Source: Dysidea avara
Taxonomy: Eukaryota > Porifera > Demospongiae > Dictyoceratida > Dysideidae
Reading direction: 5' to 3'
Assembly (NCBI RefSeq): GCF_963678975.1
Contig: NC_089281.1
Coordinates: 8,829,277 to 8,893,276 of the forward strand
Length of the DNA stretch: 64,000 nt
Positions 15,534-63,600 of the stretch are shown one piece after another. The position numbers and the translations under genes were made by a program. The first letter of the stretch is position 1, and the number at the start of each line of letters is the position of its first letter. The notes below the pieces were generated by a model. That model was given only the letters and a program-made list of their open reading frames with translations, did not search any database and had not been told where the DNA came from.

Positions 15534-16361
15534 ATGATTATGATTATGATTATGATTTGATACTGGAAAGACAGCACTCAGTGCTGGTTACATCCAGGAG
15601 GGGGGGGGACCCTCAAAACAAAAAGGAGGTTAATTACAACAAATCTAGTCCAAAAATACAATTATTAAACTGTTCTAGTGACTCTGTATCGATGATGTGA
15701 TTAGGGAGGTTATTCCATTGCTTGATAGTTCCTGGAAAGTAACTCTGTTGGTAAGCAAGTGTTCTAGTTGGAGGAATTATATATCTGTATTGGTGATGCA
15801 ATCTAGTTGGATATGAAGTAGGCTTGAAATACTCAGGGAGCTGGATAGATGGCAAAGCGTGATGTAATACTCTATATAGTAAGTTCAAACGATCAATACA
15901 TCTTCTGCTCTGTAGGCTCTTCCAATGCAGTTGATCCAACAGGTAAGTGACACTACTCATTGGATTGTAATCCGATGCTACCCATCTTGCAGCACGACGT
16001 TGTATCTTCTCTAAAGTATTAATTAAGTATAGCTGGTGAGGGTCCCAGACACAACTAGCATATTCCAGCAGAGGACGTATTGATGTTAAATAGGCTGTTA
16101 TCTTAACTTCTTTGGAGCATTTACTTATATTACGTTTAAGAAAGTTGAGACTTTTAGTTGCTTTGCCGCAAAGATGATCGATGTGGTGGGACCAAGACAT
16201 TGATTGGTGGAATATGACCCCTAGATATGGATGCTGACTCTTCAGTTCCAGAGCTTTATTGTCAATGCTGTAGGTGGTGAGCATGGGAGTTTTGCTTCTT
16301 GAACAACGTAGAAAAACACACTTTTCAACATTTAGTTTCATTTGCCAAGTTTTAGCCCAGT
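15534..16361 (-). mobile_element. 5'-truncated LINE with reverse transcriptase C-terminal region
   Basis: Open frame 15634-16341 (235 codons) resembles the thumb and C-terminal part of CR1/Jockey-type non-LTR reverse transcriptases: WQMKLN(V)EKC start, PYLGV, LEYASCVWDP, LEKIQRRAARWV and a late WNNLP motif. The 3' tail is an ATAATC microsatellite (15534-15560). A 9-bp duplication GGAAGCGTT (15525-15533 and 16362-16370) flanks the insertion. The catalytic YxDD part is absent, so it is dead on arrival by 5' truncation. Confidence 0.85.
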
Positions 16362-16860
16362 GGAAGCGTTTGTTAAATAAACCGCTTTTACCAACATATT
16401 ACGCACAAAACTATCTTCTAAACTGTTTTATAGTGTGACTAACGTGTTTTTTCCCACAAATTCTCTCAACAAAGCCTCAAAGCTGCTCTTCATTTTCGTT
16501 CGCGTACGTAAGGGATACGCCCCCTTTCAACTCGAAGCGATAGGCTATTCCTGGCAGTGTACGAGGCCTGCACCGTTGTTTTTCAGTTGCTAAATGCCTG
16601 AAAACCTCAAGGGGAAGGTAGTCTGAGGAAAGTCACCACACCCGTATTTCAGTCCGCCGAAAAGAAACCACCTCAGAGCAAATTTCACCTGTGCAGAAGT
16701 TTAATACAGACTTCATTTCACTTTTACTTCTTACGTAAAAGCTGCTTTCACCGTTATTAAACGATTTTGCTCACGTGGGTGCGTACGGACAAACATAGGT
16801 AGATAGGTACATAGGTAGATAGATAGGTACACACACACACTTTTAAGGAAACAATTACAG

Positions 16861-17728: not shown

Positions 17729-29163
<11,435 letters not shown>

Positions 29164-53000: not shown

Positions 53001-55797
53001 AAAACACCAAAGCATTATGATGTCAAGTTTTATTTGCCCTATGGTACATATGAAACTTGTCTTGTGTGTATGACTGAACTGGTTCAAGCATCCCAGTGAA
53101 TGTACAATAATAGAACCATACTTCTAGGGGATGTTTTTACTCTATTAACAAACCATTTATGATGCTTTATAAGTGACAGATGCCAAGGAGTTGGCCAACC
53201 ATGCTAAAGTGTCATCCATACATTAGACTAAACAAATGTACATACATTGACACAAATGGAGCCATGACAATGTCCATGCAGAATCATATCATGTGGCAGT
53301 AACACGATGTATACTTCAGGAGTGTATCATAATCAATCCATACTGTATTGACAGATTATAGTACGTTCACGTTGAGCTGAATCCTCAAAAACATTTAATA
53401 ACTCATGGATGCAATTATACATGATCTTGAAATTTGGCTCATTTGTAGTACTGCTTGATCCGCTAAAAATATTTCAAAATCTTTTTGTTCAAATATTTGA
53501 CATACTATTTACGGCCAATCAAAATTTTCACAATACATTTCCTATGGGGAAGCCATATAAGTACAATGTCCATTACAGCCCTTTCCCGAACTTGTAATGG
53601 AGCCAAACCGTACATGTCTGTTGTTGACACCTTGGCTTTTACCAATAATCATCTAGTTGGCTGAAATGTTAACTCTGTTGAGAAAAAATCCACTTTTAAT
53701 TTTTAGCTGTTTTTCAGGATTCAGCTCAACGTGAACATACTATAGTGCTGCAGATTGATGTATCTTGCAATGATGGTGACACCATTATCAAGTTACAACT
53801 ACTAACACTACATGTCATGAAGGTTGTGTGTGCATCAATTTATTAGACTATCTACAAAATGTATAATAGATAGCTTTGTAGCAGGGCTTTGTAGGGTTGA
53901 ACTTTAGCCATAAATAGTAGTGAATGCACATCTGTAGATAGGTATTAACTTACTAGTCAATAATGAGTGGTTAACTACATGGCTAGATGAATAAGAATAG
54001 CCTATCACTGAAGCCTAACCTCCAACACTAGTAACAAAGGAACTAACTACAACAATAGTATCTATTTCTACTAGTACACATGAATTGGAGCACTTGTGAC
54101 TTTTGTGATCTATAAGGAAGAGCAGTATCACTAGTTGTAGCTCGATAATGATGTCTCCTATTCCTAGACTATTGTTAAGAGACTGTTTCTATGAGTCCAG
54201 TATGCAAAATACATTACATTTTTTATATGACCGAAACCACTTTCTACAGCCCATATGAGATAACAAGAAAGGCATATATATATATATACTTTTCTTTTTA
54301 ATGCTTCACCACACAAGTAGCCATCATTCATTACAGCTTATCACTGCCTATACTAAATGGTTTCATGGTTATAGCAAATTCCCACCATGCATATTAGGTT
54401 GTAATGCTAAACAGCAGATGGGAAAGGACAAAGCACTCCAACCATTCAGGGATCTAATACTTTTCACATATCCAGAACAAACAAACAGAAGTCATACCAC
54501 AAAGTTAAAGCCACAAACCTCCTTGATCTTTTGCAGTTTTGCATCATCCTCCAAAAAGAAGCTAAGATACTGATAGGAGACATCTACTTCAGTGTTCCCT
54601 CCATGTTTTCGATGTTCCTCAATCGTATCCCTACCTCCACTAAATGCATATTTATTGATCTGAGAGACTAACAATAAAATCACTGAAATATATTCACATT
54701 TACCTTAGTTTTGATTTCATTGTTGGTATCCTTGAGAAAAATTGAAGTGTTTGGATCACTAGCACTCATTTTCGACTGTGCACCTTGAAGGGCTGGGAAG
54801 AAAATAGAGTGCAATAAAGCTGGCTTGGGATAGCCCAACCGAGGAGCAACATCACGCGTCATCCTAAAGTATGGATCCTAGATTAAGAAGAAAACACACA
54901 GCTGAATTGCGACCGTACACTACACTCACTTGGTCAATTGCACATGGGATCAAACACATGATGTCTTTTCTGTCACCAAATATTTGAGGAAATGAATTGC
55001 TAAATGATGGAGCAGCTTGAATAGCAGGGAAACTGACTTTACCTGTAACACAATGGTTGAGCTATAGACTTTAACACAACTAGAAACACTTACCAATATT
55101 ATCACTGTCACTAAATCCAAATATACGCTTGACTTGGTTGACAAGGACGCACTTTTGAATTTTAAGTATGTTATAGTAGAATGGCATTGAAGAAGTGATG
55201 TATTCAATGTCTGAAAAGATGAAGGTTTTATCTTTATCAAAACCACATGCAATTATATCTTTGGCATTTTCAATGGCAAGTCGGTGTGCTTGCTCTGCTG
55301 ACAAATCTTTCCACAGAAATTTTTCATCATCAGTTAATTGGATTACCAAAGGAACGTCAAATGCTTCTTGCAAGTACCTGTCTGTATCAGTAAAATAAAC
55401 AAAGTTAAACAACAAGTCTTACCTTGTGAATATGAATGGAATAAGATGTCCAAGGTGCATTGACTCTGATGAAGGGCCTCGGCCAGTGTAGAGGAAAAAT
55501 GGCTTTTTGTTTTCAAACGTGTCTAGAATCAACTCCAAGTCACGGTGCGAAAAGAAAACACCTCTACGAAGAAACTGATGTACTGGCTTTCCGGTAGCTT
55601 TCTCAATCCTGTCCAATAAATTCTGGTCAATGCGTTGACTACCAAACTGCTCTGTGAAGAATAAGTTAAATTATCAATCCAACATTTTTTAACGTACTTA
55701 TTAATTTGTCATAATCTATTTTAGTTTCTCCTTCAGCTGCTACTGCAGTCCACGGGTCCACGTGCTGCTCCTTTGACTTAACGTCTGGCTCAGCCAT
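47022..55797 (-). CDS. WARS1: Cytosolic tryptophanyl-tRNA synthetase
   Basis: Class I aminoacyl-tRNA synthetase charging tRNA-Trp. Seven exons: 55698-55797, 55423-55651, 55094-55377, 54930-55042, 54704-54877, 54519-54659 and 47022-47180, total 1200 nt (399 aa), all in phase. Signatures: [18 protein letters not shown] (the HIGH-type motif), [48 protein letters not shown] and the KMSAS loop in exon 5. The C-terminal exon ([18 protein letters not shown] to [12 protein letters not shown]) is clearly the authentic last exon but lies 7.3 kb from exon 6; the intervening intron is filled with repeats. The protein starts [16 protein letters not shown], so no WHEP domain is encoded here, as in the human mini-TrpRS form; an upstream alternative exon was not seen. 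Confidence 0.96.
48101..48687. mobile_element. 587-bp DNA element with 21-bp perfect terminal inverted repeats
   Basis: ACCATAGATAATAGACACCC at the left has its exact complement at the right. It lies in the WARS1 intron. A minus-strand open frame (48424-48750) covers the right half but matches nothing I recognise. Confidence 0.75.
49390..50160. mobile_element. Large fold-back element in the WARS1 intron
   Basis: Left arm 49390-49780 and right arm about 49850-50160 are diverged inverted copies sharing, in opposite orientation, blocks such as GGCCTACTTTATTCCACGG, ATTAGTGC and TGTTGCTTTAG. The left arm contains the 13-bp minisatellite at 49449-49520; the right arm has a short reversed counterpart at 50100-50150. 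A hAT element is inserted at its right end. Confidence 0.8.
49449..49520 (+). repeat. 13-bp minisatellite, about 5.5 copies
   Basis: Tandem units of GGACTGGACTCAC, one with a C-to-T change. It lies inside the left arm of the fold-back element. Confidence 0.95.
50170..50725. mobile_element. Non-autonomous hAT element with AGTACTT repeats
   Basis: Ends CAGACATGGGACCAAGTACA and the complement of CAGACATGGGGCCAAGTACA, with an exact 8-bp duplication CGATACAG (50162-50169 and 50726-50733). Both arms consist largely of AAGTACTTAAGTA words. A fragment of the same family occurs near 32080-32140. Confidence 0.92.
51301..51410 (+). repeat. 11-bp tandem repeat, ten near-identical copies
   Basis: Ten uninterrupted units of ACATGTGGGTA. 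It lies at the start of a segment (about 51285-51800) that is an imperfect direct duplicate of about 50790-51220; the first copy has only a single unit (AACATGCAGGGTTAACTAA), so the array expanded after the duplication. Confidence 0.95.
51825..51905 (-). repeat. tRNA-derived SINE head
   Basis: The minus strand reads TGGTTCAGCTGG (A-box form, 51876-51887) and, about 31 nt on, GATTTAAATCC (B-box form, 51833-51844), with tRNA-like spacing, followed by an A-rich stretch. It is not a plausible functional tRNA because the arms do not pair well. Confidence 0.55.
52685..52840. mobile_element. Small MITE with 36-bp inverted ends
   Basis: AATAGTTAGACACC...AACCAATGGGAACCAAGCA at the left pairs with TGCTTAGTTCCCTTGGTC and GGTGTCTAACTATT at the right. 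Confidence 0.7.
53357..53744. mobile_element. MITE with about 38-bp inverted ends
   Basis: TATAGTACGTTCACGTTGAG at the left end is complemented at 53707-53744. TA dinucleotides at both edges would fit a Tc/mariner-type target, but this is not certain. Confidence 0.7.
53760..54200. mobile_element. Second, diverged copy of the fold-back element
   Basis: Arms around 53765-53890 and 54030-54190 are inverted relative to each other. They share words with the 49.4-50.2 kb element (GTTGTAGCTCGATA, TAAGGAAGAGCAGTA). The 13-bp minisatellite is missing. Confidence 0.65.
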
Positions 55798-58648: not shown

Positions 58649-61600
58649 ATGAGTGTGATACTAGTGGTCGCAAACACTGTCTTTGAAGCCTCAAATCCAT
58701 ATAGGGCAGTTGACTTATATTCACTGCTGATCAGTGGTTTGTTGCATCATCATCTTCAAGCTGCTTATGATGCTGGTTTTTTTAAAGAAGCCATAGCAGG
58801 TCATTTAAGTATTTGGGTGAACAGTTTGAACAGTTTTTCAATATTGTATTAACTAACCATTTTGTAAAGTCTATTTGACAAAAGAACGGACCCTTTTTGC
58901 AGCACCTTGTGGCACTTGTGAGCTCCTGGTAATGCAAATCATATTGTTTCCAGCCCATCTTGCTTTATGTACTCTATTATCTATGTTCAAATCAGTTGGG
59001 TGACACTGTATGCTGTAATAATTACATAGTGCTATATTGTAATTTGTGTTACAGGTAATGGTGCCTGCATACCAGATGATCCAGTTGAATGTGACAAGCA
59101 AGGAGTCAGTGAAAACTACTGGATTTACTTAGTGACATCTGCTGTGGTCCTGATTATCGTCTATGTTCCAGTGTTTGCGTCTTCAACTTCTTTGAGTGTG
59201 TACAGGTTCTTTAAGAAAGCTCAGAGGGAAGCAGAAAAAGTTGAAAAGAATATTTTGCGTCCAGTGAAAATTACGTATGAACGGAGTGGGCTCAAGTTTC
59301 TTAAAGAGTTGGCTTTGGGAGAACACAATATTGGAAATGCCATTATTGTTGGATCCTTGTTAGTGAATGTAGCTTACTTTGCTCTTTTCTGGAGGAGAAC
59401 TTATCTGTTAGCGGAAATATGTCTTGATCAATATGAACCTGAATGGCAAATTGAAGTTGTCTTTACAACATACTTCATTTGCTATTTTTGTTTGCGGCTT
59501 TTTGGCGGTTATAATCGTCGTGAATTCTGGATAGATTTGAAAACGTTTATTGATCTCGTAACTATTCCACACATTTTTGTTTCAGTTGTTGTGGATCGTG
59601 ATTGGATTGGTCTTCGATTCCTTCGAATTCTGTGGTTTAATCATGTCATTGATCTGTTTAGGCAATTTTCAGTTTTTAAGTCCCAAAGATGGATAGATAT
59701 TCTGTCACTGCTTTCTTATTTCATTACATTTTGGATAGCTTCAGCAGGAGCAATTTATGTTCTTGAAGTAACTGGTGATCCTTGGCATGACTTTAACACA
59801 CGTCACTGTACCTTGGCCTTTCCTGACTATGTTTATTTCTTGATTGTCACCATTTCAACCGTTGGGTATGGTGACATCTCACCAAATACTGAAGTTGGAC
59901 GGATCTTTGTTAGCTTTTTAATCATCTTGGGTATTGTCCTTATTGCCTATGCTACTCCAACTATATCTGAGTTGTTTGAAAGTTACTCACAATATTCTGG
60001 CAGCTACACACAAGTTACTGATGCTAAACATGTTGTGGTTTCTGGTCACATCAATTCTGAGAGTGTTAGGTACTTTCTAAGTGACTTTCTTCATCCTGAT
60101 CGGAAAGATCGCTATACTAAAGTGCTGGTTCTTCATCCTAAAGAACCAGATCGTGAACTGAAAGCTGTTATACGAAAGTATTTTCGGCGTGTGAAATATT
60201 TCAAAGGGTCTGTATTAAGCAGCATAGATCTTGAGCGTGTGAAATTAAAAAAGGCATCTGCTGCTGTCATTTTGTCTCCTAATTATTGCCTGAATCCTGT
60301 AAGTGAAGATGAGAGCAATCTGATGAGAGTTGTGTCCATCAAGAATACATGTAATGACACTAAAGTCATTGTCCAGGTACTCCAGGTGCAAAGCTTGCAA
60401 CAACTAGTACGTATCCCAAGTTGGCATCCTTCTGTTGACACTGCAATTTGCAAGAGTGAACTCAAATTAGGTTTGATGGCCCAGAACTGTCTTTGTCCAG
60501 GAATCTCAACTCTTCTGTCTAACCTCATGTACACAACTAGTGAATCAGCTAGTGGTGGTTGGCAATTAGAGTATATGAAAGGTGAGTGTGTACATGTGAT
60601 GTGTATTATTTGTTATACATGTGTACTGTTTTACACAGGAGCTGGTAATGAAGTGTATAAGGAAGAAATACCAGAAGCATTCTATGGCATGCTGTATGAA
60701 GATGTTGTACTACAATGTTTTATGAATCCACAGTTAAAAATGATGTTGATTGCAATTGACGCCTCTCCAATATCAGCAACCTTTAAGCGTAATGCTGAGC
60801 GAATTATCTATCCTACTCCATTTGGTTTTAAGCTTGACAAAGGGATGTATGGATACTTCATAGCTCAAGATGAGGAGCAAGTTTCAGCTCTGCAGAGAGA
60901 GGTATCTCCTGGAAAATTTGTAGCAACTAGGTCACAAAATGGTGCACAGCGATCCAGTCTGCCACATCAACATGACACTCCACTTGTGCAAATCCAGGTA
61001 GAGGCCTCACCTGGACACAACAACTTACAACCACTGTCGCCAACCACCACTTCATCTGTTCTTTATCACAAATGTCCTGATAGAAATATTGAGGAGGTCT
61101 TGCTTCAAGAGTCAACAAATTTGACAGACCATGTAGTTTTGTGTACGTTTAGTGAAAAAGATTCAGATGAATTAAACTTGCACAGCTTTGTATCCCCCCT
61201 GAGATCTTGTACGTTGCAATTGCATGAGCTGAAACCGATTGTAATTATTGGTAACAAAGATTGCATACAGGCTGAGTGGAACAGCATTGCAGAATTTGAT
61301 AAAGTTTTTGTCATTGATGGTAGTCCCCTTGATCAAGATACCCTCAAGGCTGCCAATGTGGCTCACTGCAGTTCTTGTTTGATCCTTGGATCTACTAGAA
61401 GCCTTGATGAAGACCCAGCCCTGATTGACAAGCAGCCAATTCTTTGTTCACTGACCCTTTCAACATTAGATTTTGGTATGCCTGGTAAGGCATTGAAGAT
61501 CAACAAAGTGACAGAGCTCTACCGGGAGGAGAATGTAGAATTTCTGGATCTGGGAGATGATGATGATGCTGCATCATTCATTGCTTCACAGCCATTTGCT

Positions 61601-62023
61601 CAGGGAGAATGTATATCTAGCACTGTCTTTGATTCATTGGTAGCAGTTGCTTATTTTAATCCAGGTGCTACCGCCTTGTTTGAGAAGCTAGTGACAGGTG
61701 GAAGTGTAAACCAAGCCAAAGCTAAACAGATAAGGAAGACACGCCGCTTGACATACACCACCTCAAGTGGGGAAAAGCCATCATTTTATCGGCCTCGGTT
61801 TCTCCTAATCTCTTTGGAAAGGCCAGAATATGAACAGTTTTGTAACCAGATATTCGCTATGCTATTTGAGAGCTTTCTGGAAGAAAAGAAATTGTGCATA
61901 GGTATCTACCGGTGCATTGATCCAGACAAAGCTAGCTCTAAAAGATTTGTCATTACTTTACCTGAGCATGACATGGTTCTGATGCAAAGTGACCAGATTT
62001 TTGTACTCGTTTCTTTCAAATAA
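58649..62023 (+). CDS. KCNMA1: Slo1 (BK)-like calcium- and voltage-regulated potassium channel alpha subunit
   Basis: Plasma-membrane K+ channel. Likely exons: 58649-58808 (or ending at 58799), 59055-60581 and 60639-62023, giving about 1023 aa. An S0 segment follows CIPDDPVECDKQ (near residues 73-97), then S1-S6. S2 has YFCLRLFGG; S4 reads GLRFLRILW; the pore has STVGYGDIS (residues 321-329). RCK1 starts at KHVVVSGHINSESVRYFL; RCK2 includes the TELYREENVEFLDLGDDDD stretch matching the calcium bowl, then the RFVITLPEHDM region near the C-terminus. S0 plus the bowl argue for Slo1 rather than Slo2. Oddities: the third S4 arginine is Trp at about 247; the bowl has four Asp in a row instead of five; RCK1 has N where BK has the first high-affinity Asp. 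The open frame continues upstream of the GTG at 59132, so that is not the start. An additional 5' exon is possible. Confidence 0.9.
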
Positions 62024-62503: not shown

Positions 62504-63600
62504 ATGGTAACATGTAAGTACCCATCCAATTATCGACCAATATCTTTAACTTGTAAATGTTGCAAAACCTTAGAACATATTATTCACACAAATATTATGA
62601 CCCAACTATATAGCATATTCTCAGGTACTCAATTTGGATTTTGCAAAAACTACTCTGCTGAACTTCAACTAATCAAAGTATGCCACGATTTAGCTCATTC
62701 CCTAAATAATAAAGGCCAAACTGATGTCGTTCTTTTAGATTTTAGCAAAACTTTTGATAAAGTTCCACACTATCCACTTCTACTGAAACTACAGCATTAT
62801 GGTATACAAGGTCATATTCTTCTAAACTGGATTTCCGATTTCTTATCTGAACACACTCAACACATATGGTATGCATGTGGTGGCTCCACCTCCAAACCCC
62901 TATCAATGTAACTAGTGGTGTCCCTCAATGAAGTGTATTAGGGCCATTACTATTTTTAACATACATAAATGACATCTCTAATACTTATCATCATCATGTT
63001 GCCTATTTCCAGATGATTGTATTTTGTATAGAAACATCATGTCAGCTACGTCATACTGATGCTGAAATCTTTCAAGAAGACCTAAACAAACTTGCTACCT
63101 TCATGGGTAAAAACTTGGGGTATGCATTTCAACATTGATAAATATATGCATGGTGCTACGTGTTACAATAAAGCAAAATCCTTTTACCACAGAATATTTT
63201 CTGGACAATCAAAAGCTCAGCCCTGCTACTAAAGCTAGGTATTTGGGTGTTATTAATATTTAATCATCATATGGATTCAGTTTGTCAGAAGGCAAATCAG
63301 ACCTTGACCTTTTTACATAGGAATTTTATAATCAAAGAGTAAAACTTGATGCTTATAAGATATATGTTGAACCAATTTTGAACTATGCAGCGACAGTATG
63401 GTCTCCCCATACTCAATATTAACAAACTTGAAAGAATTCAAAAACATGCAGCTCGTTTAAAGACTATCCAAAGGACAAGTAGTGCTTTGCATATGCTCAA
63501 CTCTTTGGGTCTAAAATCTATTTTGTACGTACTATTGATGTTATACAAGATTGTACATAAATTAGTGGAACTCTCCTAGTGGAACCCAGCTATATCTCCA
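62504..63600 (+). mobile_element. Broken LINE reverse transcriptase
   Basis: The frame 62504-62911 shows SNYRPISLTCKCCKTLEHII, TQFGFCKNYSAELQLI, LLDFSKTFDKVPH and YGIQG motifs of a CR1/Jockey-type reverse transcriptase. Further fragments continue in shifted frames, including VLGPLLF at about 62935 and LERIQKHAARLK in frame 63385-63579. Frameshifts and stops, and loss of the catalytic aspartate motif region, mark it as inactive. Confidence 0.85.

Follow-up and report, generated by a model that had tools for sequence, protein, structure and literature searches.

A tandem family of Slo1-type potassium channels with tryptophan at the position of the third S4 arginine and an altered Mg2+ site

Results

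A Slo1/BK-type channel gene in the window

The window that was analysed is a stretch of 64,000 nucleotides corresponding to positions 8829277-8893276 of contig C10 in an assembly of 550.8 Mb and 108 contigs. A Slo1/BK-type channel is coded on its + strand at 59055-62023. The stop-to-stop frame on this strand comprises 997 codons (59030-62023); with a short intron left out, 969 codons are read from 59060, stop included, and the reading is Slo1-like. The acceptor AG of the first exon listed below was predicted by eye at 59053-59054, and the start codon is placed in an exon upstream of 59055.

59055..60581, + strand, exon 1, with a putative S0, the voltage sensor, the pore and the first part of RCK1 (Pfam Ion_trans, Ion_trans_2, Slo-like_RCK, BK_channel_a)
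59858..59875, + strand, K+ selectivity filter TVGYGD (sequence)
60582..60638, + strand, 57-base in-frame intron, GT...AG; its removal gives the Slo1-like reading WQLEYMKGAGNEVYKEE, and phmmer shows an insertion at this place relative to Slo1
60639..62023, + strand, second coding exon, with the remainder of RCK1, RCK2, the Ca2+ bowl, the C-terminus and the stop codon (Pfam Slowpoke_C, sequence alignments)

The Pfam models Slo-like_RCK, BK_channel_a, Ion_trans, Ion_trans_2 and Slowpoke_C were matched by the frame, and the RCK1, RCK2 and BK_channel_a domains are all present, RCK2 as judged by alignment. The top matches among proteins with solved structures were all BK/Slo1 chains, from Aplysia (E 4.3e-151), slowpoke (3.6e-150) and human (4.7e-149), which agrees with the Pfam matches and with the channel type proposed in the preliminary description of this DNA. 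Slo1 chains ranked above those of Slo2 and Slo3 in this comparison, which comprised solved structures only. Slo2 (KCNT1) likewise is an RCK-containing K+ channel, but its match was far weaker (102.5 versus 508 bits). The gating ring of Slo3 (KCNU1; 4hpf) aligned with a score below those of Slo1 gating rings (148 versus 203.6 bits for 3u6n), and the Ca2+ bowl is intact in the present gene. In common with Slo1/BK/KCa1.1 (KCNMA1) of human, Aplysia and Drosophila, the protein possesses S1-S6, the TVGYGD filter, two RCK regions, a Ca2+ bowl and residues R207, R210, R167 and D186. A hydrophobic stretch that may correspond to S0, YWIYLVTSAVVLIIVYVPV, is located before S1; slowpoke (7pxe) aligned there from residue 8 of the query, but only at E 0.23. 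Residues are numbered here according to human chain 9czh, whose first aligned residue is L115, and known residues fall on the expected letters. Identity to the human protein over positions 115-514 was 159 of 398 residues. A single-sequence structure prediction of the first exon (mean pLDDT 37.3, pTM 0.23, 486 of 499 residues below 50) provided no usable support.

Three intact copies and one broken copy in tandem

When exon 1 was used as a query against the genome, eight matching stretches were recovered (11 candidates scored), all on contig C10 within ~37 kb. Three of the stretches are the copy in the window (copy A), copy B (81%) and copy C (76%); the other five are fragments of copy D, which is broken. 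Realignment with the whole protein showed uninterrupted reading through the two coding exons in copies A, B and C, and stops and frame breaks in copy D.

C10:8897092-8900443, 8908113-8910960 and 8923782-8926717, same strand, intact copies B and C and broken copy D, in tandem downstream of the window and outside it

Pairwise dN/dS values for exon 1 (NG86) were 0.110/0.670 for A-B, 0.150/0.722 for A-C and 0.149/0.791 for B-C, giving ratios of 0.16-0.21, which shows purifying selection on this exon in the intact copies. A query with human Slo1 115-514 yielded six stretches (8 candidates scored), all within the array, and Slo1 was not found outside it. Thus, no paralogue with R213 was found by this query that might supply a normal BK current. 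Relatives of the locus were not found in collections confined to viral and prokaryotic contigs, a result that has no bearing on other sponges.

Residue 213 and the S4 segment

The preliminary description held that S4 aligns to human Slo1 without gaps and that the third S4 arginine is replaced by tryptophan, with codon TGG at 59633-59635. Both points were borne out: S3-S4-S5 was free of gaps in phmmer against human Slo1 chains and in MAFFT with human and Aplysia sequences, and frame, codon and alignment agree. As both methods were ungapped over S3-S5, there is no alignment shift that places another arginine at 213, a check that the description itself had named. The codon position was correct, but the span given for the observation began at 59617, where the R207 codon has its third base; the aligned S4 segment is the one given here. 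The motif GLRFLRILW is coded at 59609-59635.

59453..59455, + strand, glutamate at human D153 in S2 (alignment)
59495..59497, + strand, R167 of S2, kept (alignment)
59552..59554, + strand, D186 of S3, kept (alignment)
59603..59671, + strand, S4, human 203-225, WIGLRFLRILWFNHVIDLFRQFS (alignment to human)
59615..59617, + strand, R207, kept, codon CGA (alignment)
59624..59626, + strand, R210, kept, codon CGA (alignment)
59633..59635, + strand, tryptophan (TGG) at human R213 (ungapped alignment; tryptophan in all four genomic copies found)
59642..59644, + strand, histidine at human Q216 (histidine in all four copies)
59660..59662, + strand, arginine at human Q222, by which S4 gains a basic residue at its inner end (R, K and R in copies A, B and C; R in D)

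The conservative glutamate in S2 and the retained S2 arginine and S3 aspartate also had been described correctly. The S4 sequences of the copies are LRFLRILWFNHVIDLFRQF (A), LRFFRFLWFNHIIDFFKQL (B), LRFLRITWFSHIIDFLRQQ (C) and LQFLRIVWFSHIIDFLRQL (D). Each intact copy retains R167, D186, R207 and R210; in broken copy D, R207 is replaced by Q. Aspartate occupies position 219 in all four copies. The three S4 arginines of Slo1 are therefore not all present in any copy, as residue 213 is tryptophan in each of the four (three intact, one broken). W213 is a real, fixed and constrained Slo1 variant. The net charge of S4 over 203-225, counted as K/R minus D/E with histidine omitted, is +2 in human, Aplysia and copies A, B and C; it is unchanged because R/K222 stands in for R213 in the count.

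Replacement of Mg2+ ligands and other charged residues

Position 99 was placed by means of the human letters at 99-100, which we assume to be correct. The following replacements were noted outside S4:

59294..59296, + strand, lysine at the presumed position of human D99 (Mg2+ site), two residues past the printed alignment edge; K in all three intact copies
59396..59398, + strand, arginine at human D133, the S1 partner acid of R207, with reversal of charge (alignment)
59510..59512, + strand, tyrosine at human N172 (Mg2+ site) (alignment)
59984..59992, + strand, YSQ in the C-linker for human RKK 329-331, within the stretch of strongest negative charge shift (alignment)
60119..60121, + strand, lysine at human E374 (Mg2+ site), charge reversed (alignment)
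60188..60190, + strand, arginine at human Q397, where K/R mimics bound Mg2+ (alignment; PMC12733198)
60194..60196, + strand, lysine at human E399 (Mg2+ site), charge reversed (alignment)

The substitutions N172Y, E374K, E399K, Q397R, D133R and K234D, together with W213, are identical in the three intact copies. The low-affinity Mg2+ site of Slo1 (D99/N172/E374/E399) is absent, with N172Y, E374K and E399K in each intact copy and position 99 probably lysine. Relative to Slo1/BK/KCa1.1, the family thus differs not only in R213 and in these ligands, but also in Q397R, D133R and E321T, in the lack of RKK at 329-331, and in a swapped charge polarity between C-linker and RCK1. The tryptophan is not an isolated change, a point absent from the preliminary description: it is accompanied by N172Y, E374K, E399K, Q397R, D133R, K234D and E321T and by a reversed C-linker, and part of these changes could compensate for it.

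Among 267 gap-free columns at which human and Aplysia Slo1 are identical (115-514), 119 retain their residue in every intact copy, 91 have a single derived residue common to the three, and 57 are mixed. The fixation of W213 alone is not unusual as it is one of the 91 shared derived residues; the notable part is which functional residues changed. Nineteen of the 31 positions that are acidic in both references are acidic in all three copies, and five are reversed in all three (D133R, D369K, E374K, E388K, E399K). The probability that five reversed positions of 31 would include both named Mg2+ acids is 0.02, a value calculated after the data had been seen. Of 28 basic positions, 14 are basic in all three copies, K234 is reversed, and ten others, including R213, R329, K331 and R342, are lost in all three. 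Conservation in copy A is lowest in the voltage sensor, which retains 24 of 68 human-Aplysia columns compared with 32 of 62 from the S4-S5 region to S6 and 77 of 137 in the linker and RCK1. In S1, one of 20 residues matches the human protein.

Charge pattern of the C-linker and RCK1

Charge shift was expressed as the mean charge per column in copies A, B and C minus that in human and Aplysia. The most negative 17-residue stretch covers the C-linker and the start of RCK1 (327-343, -7.3), and the most positive 41-residue stretch lies within RCK1 (385-425, +11.0). Columns were shuffled in 20,000 rounds and extremes were sought anywhere in 115-514, which yielded P values of 0.0007 (17 residues, negative), 0.0099 (41, negative), 0.0065 (41, positive) and 0.10 (17, positive; not significant) for widths picked after a first look and with adjacent columns taken as independent. 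The extremes and their P values point to a polarity swap between the linker and the RCK1 face over broad stretches.

Scrambled C-linkers of human BK provide a comparison. According to passages of PMC7371421, scrambles K0 (Tyr at 330) and K7 (Tyr at 329 with RKK displaced) move V1/2 from 183 to 90 and 49 mV, respectively, K2 causes a slight shift in the opposite direction, and no current was obtained from K3 (Tyr at 329), K5 and K6. The same passages describe simulated human BK in which the C-linker makes no contact with R207, R210 or R213, and the linker change therefore may be unrelated to W213.

Retention of the Ca2+ sensors

Residue D367 is taken here to be a ligand of the RCK1 Ca2+ site, as is E535, whose numbering also is assumed. 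Similarly, D892 is presumed to be a bowl residue and the numbering of the bowl aspartate run is our assignment.

60098..60100, + strand, D367 of the presumed RCK1 Ca2+ site, kept (alignment)
60650..60652, + strand, E535 of the presumed RCK1 Ca2+ site, kept (GNEVY aligned to ANEMY of 3u6n)
61541..61567, + strand, Ca2+ bowl FLDLGDDDD, D892 and D895-D898 kept (alignment)

D362, D367, the glutamate of GNEVY (equivalent to E535) and the bowl FLDL[G/E]DDDD are kept in copies A, B and C. In copy C a tblastn gap adjoins the bowl, yet the letters there read FLDLEDDDD. The retained bowl aspartates include D895 and D897, which are described as Ca2+ ligands (PMC4319557).

Discussion

BK channels are the textbook example of a protein that responds to voltage as well as to Ca2+, and the coupling between the two sensors continues to be debated. 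A natural family that lacks a gating arginine and its Mg2+ partner site, and that is kept by selection, constitutes a natural experiment on which charges are needed. The contribution of R213 is reported variously. It is the sole charge-carrying S4 arginine in a review that follows Ma 2006 (PMC4319557). Per-residue values tabulated in PMC12416887 are 0.19-0.34 e per sensor for R213 and, for R210, 0.25 to 0.35 e in three studies and -0.01 in Ma 2006, so that R210 at least equals R213 in three of the four. If Ma 2006 is right, little S4 charge would be left in the present channel; if the other studies are right, R210 would carry a useful part. Neutralization of R213 alone lowers gating charge with R210 intact (PMC12416887), and removes the sensing of Mg2+ but not of Ca2+ (PMC4319557; the loss of Mg2+ sensing also in PMC12733198). 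The Mg2+ site formed by D99, N172, E374 and E399 acts by pushing on R213 (PMC4319557, PMC12733198), and mouse Slo1 with Q397K/R is activated without Mg2+ as though Mg2+ were bound (PMC12733198).

The closest engineered counterpart is the R3Q (R202Q) mutant of Aplysia BK (PDB 9DKF/9DKN), in which the third S4 arginine likewise is neutral and the other two are kept. There, however, a single change was introduced into an otherwise normal channel, whereas the present replacement is natural, aromatic and accompanied by many changes at the interface. The text of PMC12218146 reports that R3Q gave no macroscopic current in zero Ca2+, that the Ca2+-bound mutant structure was open, and that neutralization of R3 reduced coupling to the pore, with Po <0.01 at 0 mV even at saturating Ca2+. 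W213 thus would be costly unless compensated. The S1 acid that pairs with R207 is known from Aplysia D120; the R1-D120 pair (human R207-D133) is termed modulatory, and R1Q moves activation far to the left (PMC12218146). By analogy, D133R may act toward left-shifted activation. Given the behavior of R1Q and of the C-linker scrambles, changes that ease opening, candidates being D133R and the YSQ at 329-331, may offset W213. R213W by itself does not indicate in which direction V1/2 would move.

Judged from the sequence, the channel is probably gated mainly by Ca2+, blind to Mg2+, and reduced in its sensitivity to voltage rather than devoid of it. This is the reading that best fits the literature on R213 neutralization, in which charge is lessened, Mg2+ sensing is lost and Ca2+ still opens the pore, and it accords with the preliminary prediction of weak or altered voltage dependence and possibly predominant Ca2+ gating. 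In known Slo1 channels R213 provides part of the gating charge and is the target on which bound Mg2+, or positive charge placed at Q397, acts to push the sensor up. In the tandem family this R213-Mg2+ module would have been dismantled: residue 213 is tryptophan, the Mg2+ ligand positions are K, Y, K and K, the first of these putatively, and residue 397 is arginine. Mg2+ would then neither bind nor act, the gating charge per sensor would be lower and would derive mostly from R210, and the main opening signal would be the binding of Ca2+ at RCK1 and the Ca2+ bowl. The altered charges of the C-linker and RCK1 probably would reset the resting open probability such that Ca2+ alone opens the pore. 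Weak voltage dependence is more likely than its absence because R210 is retained and R/K222 restores the net charge of S4.

The voltage sensor nevertheless may still work well, given that R207, R210, R167, D186 and E153 persist and that the net charge of S4 has not changed. On this basis ordinary BK voltage dependence could have been maintained by redistribution, with R210, the basic residue at 222 and H216 replacing R213. The net charge of +2 shared by human, Aplysia and the three intact copies, the presence of H216 and a basic 222 in all four copies, the retained countercharges D186, R167 and E153, and the finding in recent work that R210 carries a charge equal to that of R213 (PMC12416887) are in its favor. 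Relative to D219, however, residue 222 is nearer the cytosol and probably beyond the focused field, and neutralization of R213 by itself lowered gating charge when R210 was intact (PMC12416887). Retention of voltage sensing in this manner is considered unlikely but not negligible. It is improbable that constraint was relaxed, the sensor having drifted in an animal without fast electrical signaling and W213 having no special role. In favor of such drift, conservation in copy A reaches its minimum in the voltage sensor, S1 has a single match in 20 residues, the change in the linker may have no connection with S4 (PMC7371421), and some changes may be neutral drift as divergence is large and only 119 of the 267 columns are kept throughout. 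Against general relaxation, W213, H216 and D219 are common to four copies, the broken one included, exon-1 dN/dS is low, no intact copy has lost R207, R210, R167 or D186, and the charge shifts are clustered (P 0.0007, 0.0099 and 0.0065, with 0.10 for the 17-residue positive extreme).

A sequencing or assembly error, a pseudogene or an alignment shift is the least credible origin of W213, and was rejected. TGG is a single base from the arginine codons CGG and AGG, which are used nine and eight times in the gene, but the frame is open for 969 codons, stop included, without the intron, the alignments are ungapped by two methods, and tryptophan recurs in all four copies. As exon-1 dS between the intact copies is 0.67-0.79, this recurrence excludes a base-calling error in practice.

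Within the interpretation of predominantly Ca2+ gating, a more specific proposal can be advanced tentatively. The only Slo1-type channels found in this lineage might have become dedicated to Ca2+ by a coordinated swap of charge at the interface between sensor and gating ring. Basic residues at 99, 374, 397 and 399 would serve as a permanent stand-in for Mg2+, R213, which always would be repelled, would have been removed, and the C-linker would have turned acidic to match a basic RCK1 face. A sponge Slo1 or a natural loss of R213 was not found described in the titles, abstract openings and passages of the open PMC literature, subscription papers falling mostly outside this scope; the words sponge and Amphimedon are absent from the text of PMC12218146, whose cross-species S4 alignment is a figure.

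Other channels and genome surroundings

A Kv1.2 query gave one match in the genome at E <= 1e-6 (9 candidates scored), namely BK copy C; an exon-wise search can miss split genes, and the absence of Kv channels is not proven by this result. Pfam Ion_trans matched 19 stretches of the genome at E <= 1e-5, with one frame read for each and several of the frames short or cut by stops. Four of the 19 frames contain a TxGYGD-type filter, these being the three BK copies and a 197-codon frame at C4:25321059. If the array belongs to a sponge lineage without Kv channels, it would bear on how K+ currents are controlled in nerveless animals. Four further Ion_trans genes, at C9:34416488-34418371, C6:3441701-3442447, C11:11369624-11370142 and C12:26038573-26039352, were classified by eye as a TPC-like two-domain channel, two cyclic-nucleotide-gated-like channels and one CatSper/Cav-like channel.

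Elsewhere in the window, an exon of tryptophanyl-tRNA synthetase was located at 55419-55670 on the - strand (E 4e-35 to a solved cytoplasmic chain). A reverse transcriptase remnant (62504-62908, + strand; RVT_1, E 3.7e-14) starts ~480 bases past the BK stop codon. An Integrase_H2C2 zinc-binding domain at 25598-25993 on the + strand (E 1.6e-10) probably is a retroelement remnant, and a 254-codon frame at 15634-16398 on the - strand resembles by eye the end of a non-LTR reverse transcriptase, its sole Pfam match being unrelated and below the cut-off. In the wider genome, a silicatein query produced 24 matches, and all eight of the loci that were read contain cathepsin-L-like exons. Silicateins carry serine at the position of the catalytic cysteine, and one of the eight loci, the exon at C1:58505718-58505963, has serine at this position (GECGSSWAFS).
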